Shown here one piece after another: positions 5,738 through 58,612 of a stretch of 64,000 nucleotides of DNA (position 1 is the first letter of the stretch; each line of letters begins with the position of its first letter). The stretch is from an uncultured Planctomycetaceae bacterium. Its GTDB lineage: Bacteria > Planctomycetota > Planctomycetia > Pirellulales > UBA1268. The stretch is taken from contig CAISJI010000188.1 of NCBI GenBank assembly GCA_903885565.1, positions 1 to 64,000 on the forward strand, in the 5' to 3' direction. The notes under the pieces were generated by a model that saw only the letters and a program-made list of their open reading frames with translations, did no database searches and was not told the origin of the DNA. The translations under genes and the position numbers were made by a program.

Positions 5738-7537
5738 CTACCGCGCCAGGGCGGCCCGACTGGCTGGCTTGGCGACAGGCCGTACCTGCCCGCGGCGGGC
5801 CACCTCGAGGGCGGCGTCGAGGAAGGCGTCGCTGGCGGGGACGGGGGCTGCCAGAGCGAGTGCAGAACCAGTGGCGGGCGAGAGGGGCTTGGCGACCTCT
5901 TGCACCTGCAGATCGGGCTCCACCCCCACCCGGCTGTAGGGCAGGCCCTTGGGGGAGAAGAATTTGGCAGTTGTGAGCCGCATCCCCACACCAGCCACCT
6001 CCAGCGGGAAAATACCCTGGATCGATCCCTTTCCGTAGCTGCGAGTGCCCACGATCGTGCCCCGGCCATGGTCCCGGATGGCGCCGGCGAAAATCTCACT
6101 GGAACTGGCCGAATCGCCATCGATCACCAGCACCAGCGGCAGCTTCCAGGTGCCGGGCCGGCGGGCGGAGTAGTTGAAATCCTCCTCCTGGCTGCGGCCC
6201 CGCGTGGCCACAACGAGCCCCCGCTCGAGGAACAGATCAGCCACATCGACTGCCGAGGAGAGCAAGCCGCCCGGATTGCCACGCAGATCGATCACCAGCG
6301 AGCGCATTCCGGCCGCGTCGAGCCGCCGCAGGGCCGCCTCAAGGTCGGCAGCAGTCGTCTTCTGGAAGGAGGTGACCTTAACCAGACCGACGCCGGCCAC
6401 CGGATCGATGATCCGCACATCCTCCACGCTCGGCACCTCGACATGCTCGCGGCGCACTGTCATCGCCCGGGCCGGGCCGCTGCCACGCAGAACGGCCAGC
6501 GTCACGACAGACCCCTCCGCCCCCTGCAGGAGTTGGGCAGCCTCATCCACATTCATGCCGGCCAGAGCGCGGCCCCCCACGCCCACCAGATGATCCCCCG
6601 CGGACAACCCCACCCGCTGAGCCGGGCTGCCCGGAATCACATGCACCACGAGCAGACCGTCCTCGGCGCTTTTCAGCTCCACACCCAAGCCGACGAAGTT
6701 TCCCTCGATTTGGGCATACAGATCATCAAGCTGGCCGTTGGTGAGAAACGAAGAGTATTCATCGAGCCCTCCCATGGCTGCCGCGGTCATCTCCAACAGC
6801 GTTACCGCCGGCGGCACTCCCAACGTGGAGTGGGCGATTCGGGCCACCCAGGCGGTGATCGTTTCGGCGTCCGTTTGCGTGGCCACGCTCCGACTGGCCA
6901 GCAGTTGGGCAACCTGCTGCCGATAGAGATCGCGCCGCTGGGGGGTCGATTGGGCGGCATACAGCGAGATGAACAGCGGCGAGTCAACCGCCACATCCAT
7001 CGCCCGGCAGCCCCGCGACACCAGCCGGGAAAAGTTGGGGGCTTCCACATGATGGGAACCGATGCGGGCCAACACCTCGGCATTGACGCGCCGCCCATCC
7101 GCCTCGGAGAGGCGGGCGATCCGCGACCGAAAGGCGGTTTCGGAATGCCTGCGTTGCAGGTCGCAGCGGATCTTGGCGAGGTCGTAGCGATCGATCACAT
7201 CCGCCGGCAGATTTCCCTGGCGAGCGACCGCATCGCAAGCACTCAATACCTCCGACCAACGCTGCTCCCGCTCCAAGGCCTCAATCCGCAACCCCAGCTC
7301 TGAAGGGGGTACCGGAGCGGGAATCGGCTGCGGCAGAGAGGCAGGCGGAGCCGTTCGAGCAGGCGCCAGCATCACCAGCGGCGGCTCGGGAGCGACTGGG
7401 GCCCAGGAAACGGTCCCCTCCGCCCCCAGCGACGATCCGCTCAGGCCCCCTCCGCAGAGGGTCAGAAGAAGGATCGAGGCGAGTGCCCGAGGCCCCTTAT
7501 GCCGAGATCCCGGCCGCCGGCGACCGCCGCCTGGCAT
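5738..7537 (-). CDS. S41 family C-terminal processing peptidase with PDZ domain
   Basis: Exported tail-specific-type serine protease. Order: signal peptide (about residues 1-40), an N-terminal helical region, a PDZ domain (NFVGLGVELKS through VIPGSPAQRVGLSAGDHLVGVGG), then the S41 catalytic core. The catalytic serine lies in DSASSSEIFAGA and the lysine about 25 residues later in SYGKGSIQG, the Ser-Lys spacing expected for Tsp/CtpA proteins. The product ends in an Ala/Pro/Arg-rich tail. The frame is open upstream to 7714, but ATG at 7537 gives a proper signal peptide (a positive RRR/RHK stretch, then ASILLLTLCGGG). A partial copy of the dispersed repeat begins 8 bp upstream of this start. Confidence 0.88.
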   Translation of the reverse strand: MPGGGRRRPGSRHKGPRALASILLLTLCGGGLSGSSLGAEGTVSWAPVAPEPPLVMLAPARTAPPASLPQPIPAPVPPSELGLRIEALEREQRWSEVLSACDAVARQGNLPADVIDRYDLAKIRCDLQRRHSETAFRSRIARLSEADGRRVNAEVLARIGSHHVEAPNFSRLVSRGCRAMDVAVDSPLFISLYAAQSTPQRRDLYRQQVAQLLASRSVATQTDAETITAWVARIAHSTLGVPPAVTLLEMTAAAMGGLDEYSSFLTNGQLDDLYAQIEGNFVGLGVELKSAEDGLLVVHVIPGSPAQRVGLSAGDHLVGVGGRALAGMNVDEAAQLLQGAEGSVVTLAVLRGSGPARAMTVRREHVEVPSVEDVRIIDPVAGVGLVKVTSFQKTTAADLEAALRRLDAAGMRSLVIDLRGNPGGLLSSAVDVADLFLERGLVVATRGRSQEEDFNYSARRPGTWKLPLVLVIDGDSASSSEIFAGAIRDHGRGTIVGTRSYGKGSIQGIFPLEVAGVGMRLTTAKFFSPKGLPYSRVGVEPDLQVQEVAKPLSPATGSALALAAPVPASDAFLDAALEVARRGQVRPVAKPASRAALAR

Positions 7538-7544
7538 GCTGAAG

Positions 7545-7606
7545 TGTCTGTGGAAAAAGTCTTCTACACCCTGTTTCCACTCGGCCGGCTGCGCAGAAAG
7601 GCCGAC
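7545..7606 (+). repeat. Partial copy D of the dispersed structured repeat
   Basis: Shares TGTCTGTGGAAAAAGTC and TTTCCACTCGGCCG with the left half of the near-complete copies at 11241-11490 and 57751-57873, then decays. It keeps the left-arm pairing GGAAA/TTTCC. It lies between the divergent S41 protease and sigma factor genes, and an intrinsic terminator follows directly on the plus strand. Confidence 0.55.
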
Positions 7607-7621
7607 CCAAGCGCCGAGCCA

Positions 7622-7647
7622 CTCGGTGCTCCCACCGAGGCTTTTTT
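7622..7647 (+). terminator. Intrinsic terminator on the plus strand
   Basis: Perfect 7-bp stem CTCGGTG/CACCGAG with a CTCC loop, followed by GC and six T residues. Only the plus strand carries the T-tract. There is no plus-strand gene just upstream, so it would end either a short transcript starting in repeat copy D or an attenuated leader of the sigma factor gene. Confidence 0.6.
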
Positions 7648-8012
7648 CCGAGCCAGCGAGCCGCCGTGGGGCAGAGTTGGTCGAGGGCGCCGACAGTGAC
7701 ACGACGACGTTCAAGGGGGCAGTCCGTTGGCGAGATGCCGCATCCCGTGGCGGCAGGCAGCGGTCTCTCCATCAACCGCTCGCGATTATGGATCACGATT
7801 CGGTGGCGGTCAAAAAAGCGACCGTTGGACGGAGAAATTCAAGCCGACAAGGCCCCGCCCAGCAAACTGAGCCAAAGCCGGCTGACTGTGGAAAAAGGTC
7901 GGCTCACAGCCCGGCAGTGCGACGTAGTGTTAGGATAGGGGACGATCGGCCCAAGCCGGCCCCCACTCCGCCGCAGCGCGGCCTCCCAAGCTGCACGATC
8001 GTTATCGCCAGC

Positions 8013-8690
8013 ATGTCGCACTCACCCCCTCAGCCCAACCGCCCCACTCCGGCTGAGAGCCCCCAGCCGCAGGTCACGATCGCCCTGTTGAACCGGGCCC
8101 GCGGGGGGGATGCTGCCGCCATCAATGGCCTCTTGGAACGCCATCGGGAGGCGATCAAGCGGATGATTCATCTGCGGATGGACCGGGTGGTTCAGCGGCG
8201 GGTCGATGCCAGCGATATCGTGCAGGATGTGATGGTCGAAGCCAACCGCCGCCTCCGCGATTATCTCGCCAACCCCTCGATGCCATTCCAGCTCTGGCTG
8301 CGTCATATGGCCCGCGACCGGCTCATAGACGCCCATCGCCGCCACCGGCTGGCCGCCAGCCGCAGCCTCGACAGGGAGGAGCCGGTCGGGAGGGCAGCCT
8401 CCGACGCCGCGCTGCCGCACGATCCTGTCGATCACCTGATCGATCGCGATCTTACCCCTGCGGCCGCGGCTACTTGGCGCGAACTCGAAGCCCGGTTTGC
8501 CGCCGCCGTGGAGCAGCTCGATCCGGCCGACCGCGAGATCGTACTGCTCCGCCACTTTGAGCATCTCTCCTCCGCAGAGGCTGCGGAAATCCTCGGCCTG
8601 GCCAAACCCGCGGCGGGGATGCGCTATCTCCGCGCCATGAAGCGGCTGCGGGTGCTGCTCGACCCTCAAGAGCCCCACCAGCCCGCCTAG
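8013..8690 (+). CDS. ECF-like RNA polymerase sigma factor
   Basis: Sigma-70 family factor of 225 residues. Region 2 is seen as DASDIVQDVMVEANRRL followed by FQLWLRHMARDRLIDAHRRH. Region 4 is seen as LDPADREIVLLRHFEHLSSAEAAEILGL with the recognition helix AAGMRYLRAMKRLRVLL. The long insert between the regions and the Arg-rich linker are common in planctomycete ECF groups. The upstream frame is open, but its content is not protein-like, so I chose ATG at 8013; no Shine-Dalgarno is obvious. No anti-sigma gene lies beside it. The promoters it recognises cannot be read from this window. Confidence 0.88.
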   Translation: MSHSPPQPNRPTPAESPQPQVTIALLNRARGGDAAAINGLLERHREAIKRMIHLRMDRVVQRRVDASDIVQDVMVEANRRLRDYLANPSMPFQLWLRHMARDRLIDAHRRHRLAASRSLDREEPVGRAASDAALPHDPVDHLIDRDLTPAAAATWRELEARFAAAVEQLDPADREIVLLRHFEHLSSAEAAEILGLAKPAAGMRYLRAMKRLRVLLDPQEPHQPA

Positions 8691-8996
8691 CCGGCTGGCC
8701 GGCACCAGACAGAGCGGCCTGCGGCTCATCGAATCCCGCCGCAGGCTGCGGTCAATGATGCCCCGGGAACGCCAGCCCGTCTCTCCGCGAGGACGTTTTC
8801 TGTTGATGCCGAACGTGGCTGTCTTCAATCCAAAGGGCTCCTGGATAAGACCAGGGATGGCCTTCTCCAGAGCCAGCGAATCCTTGGCCTCAAAGCCAAG
8901 CGCATAAAAAACTCAGGCCCCAGACTTTCGTCCGGGGCCTGAGCGTTCTAACTCTAAATCAGCAAATCAGCATTTTTCTGGTAGCGTTCTGCAGGA
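8691..8996. other. Intergenic region between convergent sigma factor and PEP-CTERM genes
   Basis: About 300 bp without a credible gene. It holds the terminator described at 8906-8943 and a small inverted repeat CTTGG/CCAAG just before it. Nothing else was recognised. Confidence 0.5.
8906..8943 (-). terminator. Rho-independent terminator of the large PEP-CTERM gene
   Basis: A 10-bp stem, CTCAGGCCCC/GGGGCCTGAG, encloses a short loop that can extend the pairing (GAC/GTC). Read on the minus strand it is followed by a run of six T (AAAAAA on the plus strand). It lies about 50 bp after the minus-strand stop at 8997, as expected for the end of that transcript. Confidence 0.8.
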
Positions 8997-10796: not shown

Positions 10797-11240
10797 AATT
10801 TTTAGCCTCAATGCTGAAAAAGAGTCAGAAACCAGAACGAGAAAGAACGCAGAAAAGACGTGTCGCGATGGGGAACGCCCGGGACCGCACCACCAAGTCA
10901 CCGCTCGACTACCTCAGACGCACAAAGATCGAAAAATTGACCTGAAAACCAAATTGCAAAGGGGTGTTTTAGGGGGTTTTCGACCTCATCCAACCCATTT
11001 TTTATCTTGCAAACCGAGCAAAACCGCGGAAAAGAGCCGGAAAATATGCGTTAGGGCGTGCTGGTCCAGATACAGACGCTACCTAATCCGACGTAGCTTA
11101 CCGGGATCGTCGGGGCTGTCAATACACGAGGGAAAGTTTTTCTCGTAGCCGGCTGGACTGGCGAAAAAAACCTGATTTGCCCAAAAAACCGGCCACTTCC
11201 AGCCCCAGCCTTCTCCGCCAAAGCTCCTCGTCCCCCTAGC
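10797..11240. other. AT-richer leader/promoter region of the PEP-CTERM gene
   Basis: Non-coding stretch upstream of the minus-strand PEP-CTERM gene, visibly poorer in GC than the rest of the window, with several A- and T-runs (for example near 10960-11060 and 11150-11190). Neither a clear -35/-10 pair nor a sigma-54 type GG-N10-GC site could be fixed by eye. It probably carries the promoter of the PEP-CTERM gene. Confidence 0.45.
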
Positions 11241-11360
11241 TGTCCGTGGAAAAAGTCATCCCTGACCTTTTTCCACTCGGCCGACCGCAGGAAACGCCGA
11301 GGGTTTCCTGGGTCGACCACCGCCGCATCCGGCGGCGAGTACTGTATCCACAGCCTGCTA
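11241..11360 (+). repeat. Structured dispersed repeat, copy A
   Basis: About 120 bp with three hairpins. Hairpin 1 (11248-11274) is GGAAAAAGTCA paired with TGACCTTTTTCC, with one bulge. Hairpin 2 (11288-11310) is CAGGAAAC/GTTTCCTG with loop GCCGAGG. Hairpin 3 is CGCCGC/GCGGCG with a 5-nt loop. The ends (GTGGA ... TCCAC) can pair to close the element. It is followed directly by copy B; both begin after CTAGCTGTCC-like sequence. Confidence 0.8.
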
Positions 11361-11490
11361 GCTGTCCACGGAAAAATCATCCCTGATCCTCTGGGAAAAT
11401 AGCCCACTCGGCCGCCCTCAGGAAACGCCGAGGGTTTCCTGAGGCGACCACCGCCGCATCGGGCGGCGGATATTTTGCTCACAGCCTGCA
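11361..11490 (+). repeat. Structured dispersed repeat, copy B (tandem to copy A)
   Basis: Second copy in the same orientation. Hairpin 2 is intact and extended to CTCAGGAAAC/GTTTCCTGAG (about 11417-11443), again with loop GCCGAGG. Hairpin 3 is CCGCCGC/GCGGCGG. Hairpin 1 is eroded (GGAAAAATCA, then TGATCCTCTGGG). The end, TCACAGCCTGC, matches the ends of copies A and C. The Ser/Thr kinase gene starts 110 bp downstream. Confidence 0.78.
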
Positions 11491-16351: not shown

Positions 16352-16400
16352 TCAACAGGCTGCGGAGAAAGTGAACCCGCGCTGGATGCCAGGCTGGTCG
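16352..16400 (-). repeat. Diverged partial copy E of the dispersed repeat
   Basis: The plus strand reads CAACAGGCTGCGGAGAAAG followed by a CGCTGGATGCC-like stretch. It aligns with the reverse complement of the right end of copy C (CTAACAGGCTATGGATAAAG, then CCGCTGGACGC). The remainder toward 16440 has decayed. It lies between the MiaE-like stop and the P-type ATPase start, oriented like the ATPase. Confidence 0.45.
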
Positions 16401-16430
16401 ACTGCGGAATTCGCGCTGTCTGTGAGTTGG

Positions 16431-17006
16431 TCAACTGTGCATTCTAGGCAGCGAATCACCCCTGGCGATGATGGCTGCCTCCTGATCGGCCAGCCAGTGG
16501 AGCCGGTCGCGAACGGCGTCTTCCCCGGCGAAGTCGTGGGCCAGCCGCACATACGTGCTGTGGTGCCGGGCCTCCGACTCAAACAGCCCTCCATAGAATT
16601 CGCTGAGCTCCCGGTCAGACACATAGTCTCGTAGCTGGGCAAACCGCTCGCAGCTACGGGCCTCGATGAGCCCGGCCACCAGCAATCGATCGACTGCCCG
16701 CTCTGGTTCCTGCTTCCGCACCAGTTCGTGCAACCGCTGCCCGTAGGAACTCGGGCATAGCTTGCGGAACGGGATGCCTCTCCGCTGCAGCAGGTCGAGA
16801 ACGAGGTGGAAGTGAGCCAGTTCTTCGGTGACGATTTCGGTCATCGAACGGGCCAGATCGACATGGTCGACATACGAAAAAAGCAGGTTCATTGCCACGC
16901 CCGCCGCCTTCTTCTCGCAATGGGCATGATCGATCAGTATCTCCTCCAAGTGGGCATCCACCTGTGCCAGCCAGCGGTCGGAAGAAGTCGATTGCAGACT
17001 GAGCAT
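16431..17006 (-). CDS. miaE: MiaE-like tRNA hydroxylase (diiron)
   Basis: Ferritin-like diiron protein of the MiaE family, which hydroxylates the isopentenyl side chain of ms2i6A in tRNA. Family-type ligands are seen in ILIDHAHCEKKAAG, IVTEELAHFHLVL, AGLIEARSCERF and LFESEARHHSTYV, and the four-helix pattern and length of about 190 residues agree. ATG 17006 (MLSLQST...W) fits the usual family start. A longer frame up to 17129 exists but adds non-family sequence. miaA and miaB are not in the window. It is divergent from the DUF2237 gene across a gap of about 270 bp. Confidence 0.85.
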   Translation of the reverse strand: MLSLQSTSSDRWLAQVDAHLEEILIDHAHCEKKAAGVAMNLLFSYVDHVDLARSMTEIVTEELAHFHLVLDLLQRRGIPFRKLCPSSYGQRLHELVRKQEPERAVDRLLVAGLIEARSCERFAQLRDYVSDRELSEFYGGLFESEARHHSTYVRLAHDFAGEDAVRDRLHWLADQEAAIIARGDSLPRMHS

Positions 17007-53476: not shown

Positions 53477-53619
53477 GACGGGAACTCCTGCAACGACGGG
53501 GGCGGATGGATTCTGCACTGGATGGCTGCCGGCAGGCCCGCCAGCAGATCTGCCGCAGGACACCCGACCCCAACGGACGGTAAACTACCATCGTCCCCCT
53601 CTCCCCGGAAGCATCGCCC

Positions 53620-54669
53620 ATGAAGCCTCTACCGGCCAGAACCTTTTTCCGCTCTCGACAGGCATCGTCTCCGGCGATGCTGAACTTGATCCACAGCCTG
53701 CTGGTGGCTGCGGCGGTGGCTGGCCTGGCGGCCTGTGGCTCAGGCCTGGCGGTCGCTGCGCCGCCCGAGGCAGGCAGTCGCTGGGCACTCCGCGATGGCG
53801 ACCGGGTCGTGCTGCTGGGGGACACGTTTGTGGAGCGCGAGGGGGATCAGGGCTACATCGAAACAGCCCTGGTGGCGGCCTCTCCCGAGGCCACGCTCTC
53901 CTTCCGCAATCTGGGCTGGAGCGGCGACACCGTCTGGGCGGAATCGCGCGGCGTGTTCGACACCCCTGCCGAGGGCTATGCCCGGATGCTCGGCCTGGTG
54001 CGGGAACTCAAGCCGACCGTGCTCTTTGTCGCTTATGGGCGGAACGAATCGTTCCGCGGGCCGAGCGGTCTGCCGGCGTTCCATACGCAGCTGGCCAAGC
54101 TCTGCGATGACGTGCGCACGGCAGCGGCAGGAGATTCCGGTAACACGGTGCGGCTGGTCCTCGTCACACCCCATGGTTTTGAAAAAACTCCCCAGTCGCC
54201 CGATGCTCCCGCCCGCAACGAGACGCTCGCCCCGTTTGCGGCAGCGATCCGCAGCGTGGCAGCGGAGAAGCAGGCAGGGCTGGTTGATCTCTTCGCCGAG
54301 ATGCCGGCGGACTCTGCCACACCACTGACTGAAAACGGATCCCATCTTTCGGCAGCCGGATATGCGGCAGCAGCCCGTCTGTTTGTCGCCGCTTCCGGCG
54401 GCCGACAGCAGAGGCTGGCACCTGAATCGGCCGAGCACCTGCGGCAGCAGGTGGTGGCCAAGAACAGGCTCTTCTTCCACCGCTGGCGACCTGCCAACGA
54501 AACCTACCTGTTCCTGTTCCGCAAATATGAACAGGGGAACAACGCGGTTGAAATCCCTCAATTTGATCCGCTGGTTGAGGAGGCGGAGCGCACCATTCAG
54601 GCCACCGCCCGCCAGACCAGCCTGCCCACTCCAACCACCCCCACTCCTCCTGTTCCAGGACCCACCTGA
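53620..54669 (+). CDS. SGNH-fold lipoprotein-like protein with altered catalytic block
   Basis: 349 residues. The N-terminus has a hydrophobic segment with a lipobox-like LAAC (C39). SGNH-like blocks follow: block I is LLGDTFVEREG (Thr where the catalytic Ser stands), block II GWSGDTVW, block III VAYGRNES, and block V TENGSHLSAAGY. After the fold comes LFFHRWRPANETYLFLFRKYEQGN, then a Pro/Thr tail. In planctomycetes such proteins are usually encoded directly before PVC-type dehydrogenases, as here (1 bp gap). The missing Ser suggests binding or altered chemistry. ATG 53620 is used; ATG 53677 is an alternative. Confidence 0.78.
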   Translation: MKPLPARTFFRSRQASSPAMLNLIHSLLVAAAVAGLAACGSGLAVAAPPEAGSRWALRDGDRVVLLGDTFVEREGDQGYIETALVAASPEATLSFRNLGWSGDTVWAESRGVFDTPAEGYARMLGLVRELKPTVLFVAYGRNESFRGPSGLPAFHTQLAKLCDDVRTAAAGDSGNTVRLVLVTPHGFEKTPQSPDAPARNETLAPFAAAIRSVAAEKQAGLVDLFAEMPADSATPLTENGSHLSAAGYAAAARLFVAASGGRQQRLAPESAEHLRQQVVAKNRLFFHRWRPANETYLFLFRKYEQGNNAVEIPQFDPLVEEAERTIQATARQTSLPTPTTPTPPVPGPT

Positions 54670-57676: not shown

Positions 57677-57750
57677 GGGGAGGGGCTTGAGTGGCGGTCT
57701 GGAAGGCACCGGCGCTGACCACACACTGTAAAACTCTGTCTATACTGAAC

Positions 57751-57873
57751 TGTCTGTGGAAAAAGCCATCCATGGCCTTTTTCCAAGAAGTCGACCGCAG
57801 GAAACGCCGAGGGTTTCCTGGGTCAACACCCGCCGCGTCCAGCGGCGGATTACTTTATCCATAGCCTGTTAGA
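57751..57873 (+). repeat. Structured dispersed repeat, copy C
   Basis: Full-length copy. Hairpin 1 (57758-57784) is GGAAAAAGCCAT/ATGGCCTTTTTCC with one bulge. Hairpin 2 (57798-57820) has CAGGAAAC/GTTTCCTG and loop GCCGAGG, as in copies A and B. Hairpin 3 is CGCCGC/GCGGCG with loop GTCCA. The ends CTGTGGAAAAAG and CTTTATCCATAG can pair over about 10 of 12 positions. In hairpin 1 the second stem pair is C-G where copy A has T-A, a covariation. Confidence 0.8.
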
Positions 57874-58572: not shown

Positions 58573-58612
58573 TGGCAGGCTGTGCGATAAAGGATCCGGC
58601 GCTGTGATCCAC
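58573..58612 (-). repeat. Decayed inverted copy F of the dispersed repeat
   Basis: The plus strand reads CTGGCAGGCTGTGCGATAAA, then GGATCCGGCGCTG. It matches the reverse complement of the right end of copy C (CTAACAGGCTATGGATAAAG, ATCCGCCGCTG) with few changes. Orientation is opposite to copy C, so the two bracket the nucleotidyltransferase gene. Confidence 0.45.

Follow-up and report, generated by a model that had tools for sequence, protein, structure and literature searches.

A hairpin-rich, MITE-like element of a planctomycete family that shares its ends with IS1182-like insertion sequences

Introduction

Repeats of the ERIC and Correia types are foldable, intergenic sequences of approximately 100-130 bp, and the element described here is similar to them in size, foldability and location, although the hosts differ. 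In the IS1182 family of insertion sequences (ISs), IS1272 is reported to replace inverted-repeat targets and to make no duplications (PMC5678879), and some members of the family are reported to target palindromes (PMC4923244). An earlier note on the present DNA had described a dispersed repeat with three conserved hairpins, which it considered to be either a cis-regulatory RNA family or a MITE- or REP-like element, and literature searches with narrow term sets found no description of such a repeat. The findings of the present study indicate that the repeat is a family of transposon insertions, and an IS1182-like transposase encoded in sister genomes is its probable partner.

Results

The window, which is the whole 64-kb stretch of DNA analysed, contains the three copies claimed in the earlier note, and all of them were confirmed at base resolution on the + strand: copy A, full length at 118 bp (11240-11357; covariance model (CM) 129.3 bits, model positions 1-119 of 119); copy B, 127 bp with a long variant of hairpin 1 (11362-11488; CM 67.1 bits and alignment); and copy C, 119 bp (57750-57868; CM 128.5 bits). 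Their near-identical center was also verified: the window has three occurrences of the 23-bp core CAGGAAACGCCGAGGGTTTCCTG, whereas shuffled sequences have none, and the folding of the three copies is far better than that of shuffles (z = -4.8, -3.3, and -4.6). Relatives of copy A across the genome show up to 99% identity by BLAST. Among the proposed partial copies, those at 7545 and 16352 stood as decayed copies found by CM at 7544-7656 (+; 28.3 bits, E 3e-7; BLAST identity 79% over 62 bp) and 16356-16451 (-; 18.2 bits, E 6e-4), while that at 58573 is only a short right-end remnant, CAGGCTGTGCGATAAAGG / GGCAGGCTGTGCGATAAAGGATC (58573-58594, -), which was read by eye and scores below CM reporting. 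The CM added two decayed copies to those already proposed, one at 8742-8876 (-; 21.8 bits, E 4e-5) and the other, whose right half is clear, at 53599-53700 (+; 27.7 bits, E 4.5e-7), where it runs into the beginning of the ORF 53620-54669 (+). In the latter copy, GATGCTGAACTTGATCCACAGCCTGCTGG reads into the hydrophobic, signal-peptide-like start of that ORF, MLNLIHSLLVAAAVAGLAA, so that the start of a secreted protein may have been supplied by the insertion of the element. Elsewhere in the window, a sigma-factor-like gene (ORF 7536-8690; Pfam Sigma70_r2/r4) lies between two decayed copies in inverted orientation (7544-8876), and a gene for an AbiEii-like nucleotidyltransferase (Pfam PF08843; 57927-58568, +) immediately follows copy C.

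The element is mostly 118-120 bp long, with a long variant of 130-134 bp, and lacks a transposase gene. A terminal inverted repeat (TIR) of approximately 17 bp, CWGNCYGTGGANNAAGT, exists at both ends. In copy A, the left TIR located by pattern search, CTGTCCGTGGAAAAAGT, occupies 11240-11256 (+) and includes the 5' arm of hairpin 1, and the right TIR located by TIR comparison, which reads CAGGCTGTGGATACAGT on the - strand, occupies 11341-11357. Pair counts place three hairpins on the + strand: hairpin 1 (11246-11276), composed of the TIR arm and its own internal inverted copy and containing a conserved bulged C; hairpin 2 (11280-11317), with the conserved loop GCCGAGG; and hairpin 3 (11320-11338), CCGCCGC ATCCG GCGGCGA. 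Apparent solo hairpin-1 elements of approximately 43 bp were observed at three loci (L128, L135, and L165).

The genome-wide search proposed in the earlier note showed a large family. BLAST detected at least 43 copies with up to 99% identity in the 4.46-Mb draft genome, and the end pattern CWGNCYGTGGANNAAGT, with one mismatch at most, matched the genome 281 times as against 4 times for a reversed-pattern control. Because each element has two ends, these matches correspond to approximately 140 elements, an estimate that includes some solo or decayed ends; the genome-wide counts were drawn from searches and from selected stretches of the genome. The exact core is present in many planctomycete metagenome bins. 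A CM constructed from 48 diverse copies found the element in 46 of the 50 listed genomes of the same family, representing 12 genera, whereas the other families of the order yielded it in only 2 of approximately 197 genomes, all the genomes being draft metagenome bins. Per-genome CM counts are lower bounds because the stricter filters of the search drop weak matches and approximately 14 candidates were scored per genome. A search of plasmids gave a single match, attributable to chance, the exact core was not found in viral contigs, and Rfam gave no match in the window, where no gathering score was reached. The element can be regarded as a lineage marker for this little-studied planctomycete family.

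Copy A is preceded by CTAG (11236-11239), identified by direct reading and the 4-bp duplication statistics as its left target-site copy, and a single CTAG (11358-11361; direct reading and CM bounds) separates A from B, its tandem neighbor, and is common to both. The right flank of B is CATG and the flanks of C are TGAA and TTAG, and in neither copy is the duplication intact. Besides the pair at 11240-11488 of the window, tandem copies less than approximately 30 bp apart were observed at three other sites (G000:C1:31790-32072, G000:C33:27473, and G000:C142:26495-26693). The tandem copies are merely 74-87% alike, which suggests repeated insertion beside existing copies and not duplication.

Flanking target duplications, which the earlier note had proposed to look for, were found, and their length is 4 bp. 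Identical 4-mers flank 44 of 110 copies on both sides (18.3 expected; maximum of 30 in 5000 shuffles), the excess persists when CTAG is excluded (19 of 54; 4.8 expected, maximum of 13), and a single copy among 94 has a match that extends to a fifth base. CTAG is the favored target, followed by CTAA, CTGG, CCAG, and CTCG. Approximately 60% of the copies are without a perfect duplication, as is expected for old copies. IS1272-style hairpin targeting was looked for and not found: the sites of the element show 4-bp duplications, and no dyad symmetry was found in its target flanks beyond the 4-bp CTAG-like site. One copy flanked by CTAA on both sides (L021) is situated exactly at a stop codon, and the corresponding empty site exists in three relatives (G159, G136, and G155), which have no element there and align continuously over the joined flanks. 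Another site (L015) was unusable as an empty site because two relatives from another genus (L254 and L255 in G261 and G171, respectively) carry an apparent decayed copy from another subfamily and a third could not be aligned cleanly; the decayed copy reflects either an ancient insertion that the genomes have in common or more than one insertion at this site. In the own genome, 50 of 51 copies lie outside genes predicted by a simple codon-usage script. A copy near position 15332 of contig C5 (L171, G000:C5) resides inside an apparent ISL3-type transposase reading frame, as judged from translation. Copies A, B, and C, and the family to which they belong, are transposon insertions.

An autonomous partner, another point raised in the earlier note, was sought via DDE transposases in element-rich relatives, and IS1182-like ISs with a matching end were found in sister genomes. 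One of them (IS_G167; 1490 bp) encodes an intact transposase of 448 aa at L185:832-2175, has a left end, CAGGCTGTGGATAAAGT, identical at 17 of 17 positions to the right end of approximately 20 element copies of the own genome, and is flanked by ATAG and CTAG. Another (IS_G257; 1487 bp), flanked by CTAG on both sides, has the ends CAACCGTGGCCCAAGT and CAGCCCGTGGCCCAAGT and a frameshifted transposase gene. Approximately 10 more IS ends carry the same motif and mostly adjoin CTAG, TTAG, or CTAA. The best NCBIfam match of the partner transposase is IS1182, at 182.5 bits against a curated cut-off of 270; hence the designation IS1182-like, with no assignment to the family itself. Its DUF772 and DDE_Tnp_1/1_6 domains score above the cut-off (PF05598, 57.7 bits; PF13751, 34.3 bits; PF01609, 30.3 bits). 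The IS and the element have the terminal repeat in common and no notable internal similarity, so that the link between them is formed by the common end together with the similar target sites. CTAG by itself is not diagnostic, given that a second IS group obtained in the same search (L192/L193 in G257 and G211), which served as a control and was rejected as a partner because its ends, CTTCGACTTTTGCAG / CTTCGACTTTTGCAGTTTTTTC, differ, also adjoins this sequence.

The own draft genome contains a decayed piece of the transposase (G000:C245:7258-7861; L209/L219), with no intact gene assembled and nothing above the cut-off for the PF01609 and DDE_5 profiles, and a transposase match was obtained in only 15 of the 50 same-family genomes, where many matches are fragments. 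Multicopy ISs are frequently missing from draft bins assembled from metagenomes, so that a bin lacking the partner is weak evidence. Isolated TIR matches in the own genome were solo right ends and decayed copies, and no autonomous element was found among them. Long TIR-bounded elements at the examined loci were composite or chance pairs only, ORF inspection of a 1.3-kb TIR pair (L115) gave no evident transposase, and no long pair was seen with the TIR pattern in three better-assembled relatives (G251, G036, and G071). The profile of the ISAzo13 family (PF07592) had no match in 12 genomes, where the control also matched nowhere. The sole Y1 transposase gene found in the own genome (L031; G000:C247:15535-15873) has inverted-repeat flanks, AAATGGGGACGGGAGC[G/C]AATTTC, and in this respect resembles the TIR-flanked Y1 genes of PMC3733652.

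The covariation noticed in hairpin 1, GTCA/TGAC in copy A versus GCCAT/ATGGC in copy C, is genuine and recurs across the repeat family, in which pair 17-26 is C-G in 28 copies and U-A in 15. Among 48 copies, 92.8% of cells pair, and the number of double-change cells is 137, compared with 45±5 after shuffling and 35 at most when the partner is slid. Variants are also seen at pairs 42-79 (U-A, C-G, and G-C), 50-71 (A-U, U-A, and G-C), 49-72 (C-G and G-C), 12-32 (A-U and C-G), and 85-99 (G-C, A-U, and C-G). Because the alignment was selected in part via the hairpin 2 core, the conservation of that hairpin is overstated; copies found by their ends alone nevertheless mostly have the GCCGAGG loop, which appears in the forward reading in 20 of 44 entries, most of the others being the same copies on the opposite strand. 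Hairpins 1 and 2 each have an asymmetric bulge (C and G, respectively), and each bulge is kept in 91 of 92 copies. Paired changes separate the subfamilies. Among closely related copies of one subfamily, by contrast, changes are mainly one-sided (63 versus 5 paired), which means that the copies mostly decay after insertion. Private mutations are fewer in stems (30/2079 for hairpins 1 and 3) than in spacers and ends (63/1996; p = 0.0003), although this comparison is weakened by sampling via the core and ends and by shared ancestry. The covariation claimed in the earlier note thus holds, but covariation alone is no proof of selection on an RNA.

Discussion

The MITE-like reading is strongly supported by what was directly observed: the element is short and without a transposase gene, it is dispersed in many copies, it has TIRs, 4-bp target duplications, and an empty site, and complete ISs of sister genomes have the same end and CTAG-type flanks. 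Compensatory conservation of the three hairpins was likewise observed. We consider, with a probability of roughly 0.87, that the element is a MITE, i.e., a transposon that is not autonomous, and that an IS1182-like DDE transposase mobilizes it in trans. Judging from the sequence comparisons, this transposase probably acts on the element in the following way: it would recognize the approximately 17-bp end, excise or copy the 119-bp element, and insert it at CTAG-like sites with duplication of 4 bp. A simple DDE/TIR model, however, does not explain the covariation of the internal hairpins. These were probably kept for the mobile lineage, and not for a single inserted copy or the adjoining gene, for example because the transposase or the replication machinery would recognize them as ssDNA or as cruciforms. 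One tentative idea, which we hold to be possible but would not yet favor, is that the three hairpins, and especially hairpin 2 with its GCCGAGG loop, form a structure recognized as ssDNA or RNA by the transposase or a host protein, and that this DDE-type MITE depends on a folded interior in addition to its TIRs, with compensatory upkeep in at least 12 genera.

The strong folds, the compensatory changes in all three hairpins, and the scarcity of private mutations in the stems would also suit a cis-regulatory or processed RNA, each copy of which would act in the transcript of the neighboring gene and keep its fold for that purpose. The statement that most copies precede a co-oriented gene does not, however, hold genome-wide: the right-hand neighbor is co-oriented in 24 of 47 cases, which is no orientation bias, and no consistent class of neighboring gene was noticed. 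Selection on an RNA in situ would favor G-U over A-C, but the one-sided changes within subfamilies comprise 17 G-T and 20 A-C, giving no sign of single-strand folding. Together with the lack of an Rfam match, the target duplications, and the empty site, these observations make the RNA function suggested in the earlier note highly improbable. Even less can be said for a REP/REPIN-type element whose hairpins, in single-stranded form, would be the substrate of a single-copy Y1 (RAYT) transposase. The element is hairpin-rich, intergenic, and family-restricted as REPs are, and the genome does have one Y1_Tnp gene, but the flanks of that gene are unrelated repeats (AAATGGGGACGGGAGC...) and the element is absent there. 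Moreover, the 4-bp duplication is typical of DDE transposases and is not made by IS200/IS605-type insertion, and a DDE IS with the same ends exists. The duplication and the partner IS thus largely rule out the REP-like alternative in the RAYT sense, and we give it hardly any credence.

A different objection accepts the MITE and ascribes the matched changes of the hairpin arms to template switching in replication, i.e., quasipalindrome correction, instead of selection. Homogenization of hairpin arms by template switching is documented (for example, PMC7202029 and PMC8604942), the G-T and A-C frequencies of the element are equal, and some matched changes are at neighboring bases, such as CA/TG to GT/AC in hairpin 2. 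Template switching should, however, erase asymmetric bulges, and the persistence of both bulges favors upkeep of the hairpins in the mobile lineage. The predominance of single-sided changes in close subfamilies and the constancy of the GCCGAGG loop while the stems vary also argue against it, and we regard this explanation as unlikely, though worth keeping in mind.

The conserved hairpins carry a general caution: clean RNA-style covariation can arise from a DNA transposon family, which constitutes a trap for covariation-based RNA discovery. In addition, now that a likely partner transposase has been named, the role of the hairpins is directly testable.

The element shares with bacterial MITEs its small size, lack of genes, TIRs common with an IS, target-site duplication, high copy number, and intergenic location, but differs from them in that its interior holds three hairpins, with compensatory changes throughout the family and a loop that is conserved, and in the additional internal copy of the terminal repeat that forms hairpin 1. 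The partner transposase resembles those of the IS1182 family, exemplified by IS1272, in that IS1182 is its best-scoring model, whereas its score below the curated cut-off sets it apart. Hairpin richness, intergenic location, many copies, and lineage restriction are features that the element has in common with REP/REPIN sequences mobilized by RAYTs, from which it is distinguished by another class of transposase, a 4-bp target duplication, and no association with the Y1 gene of the genome.
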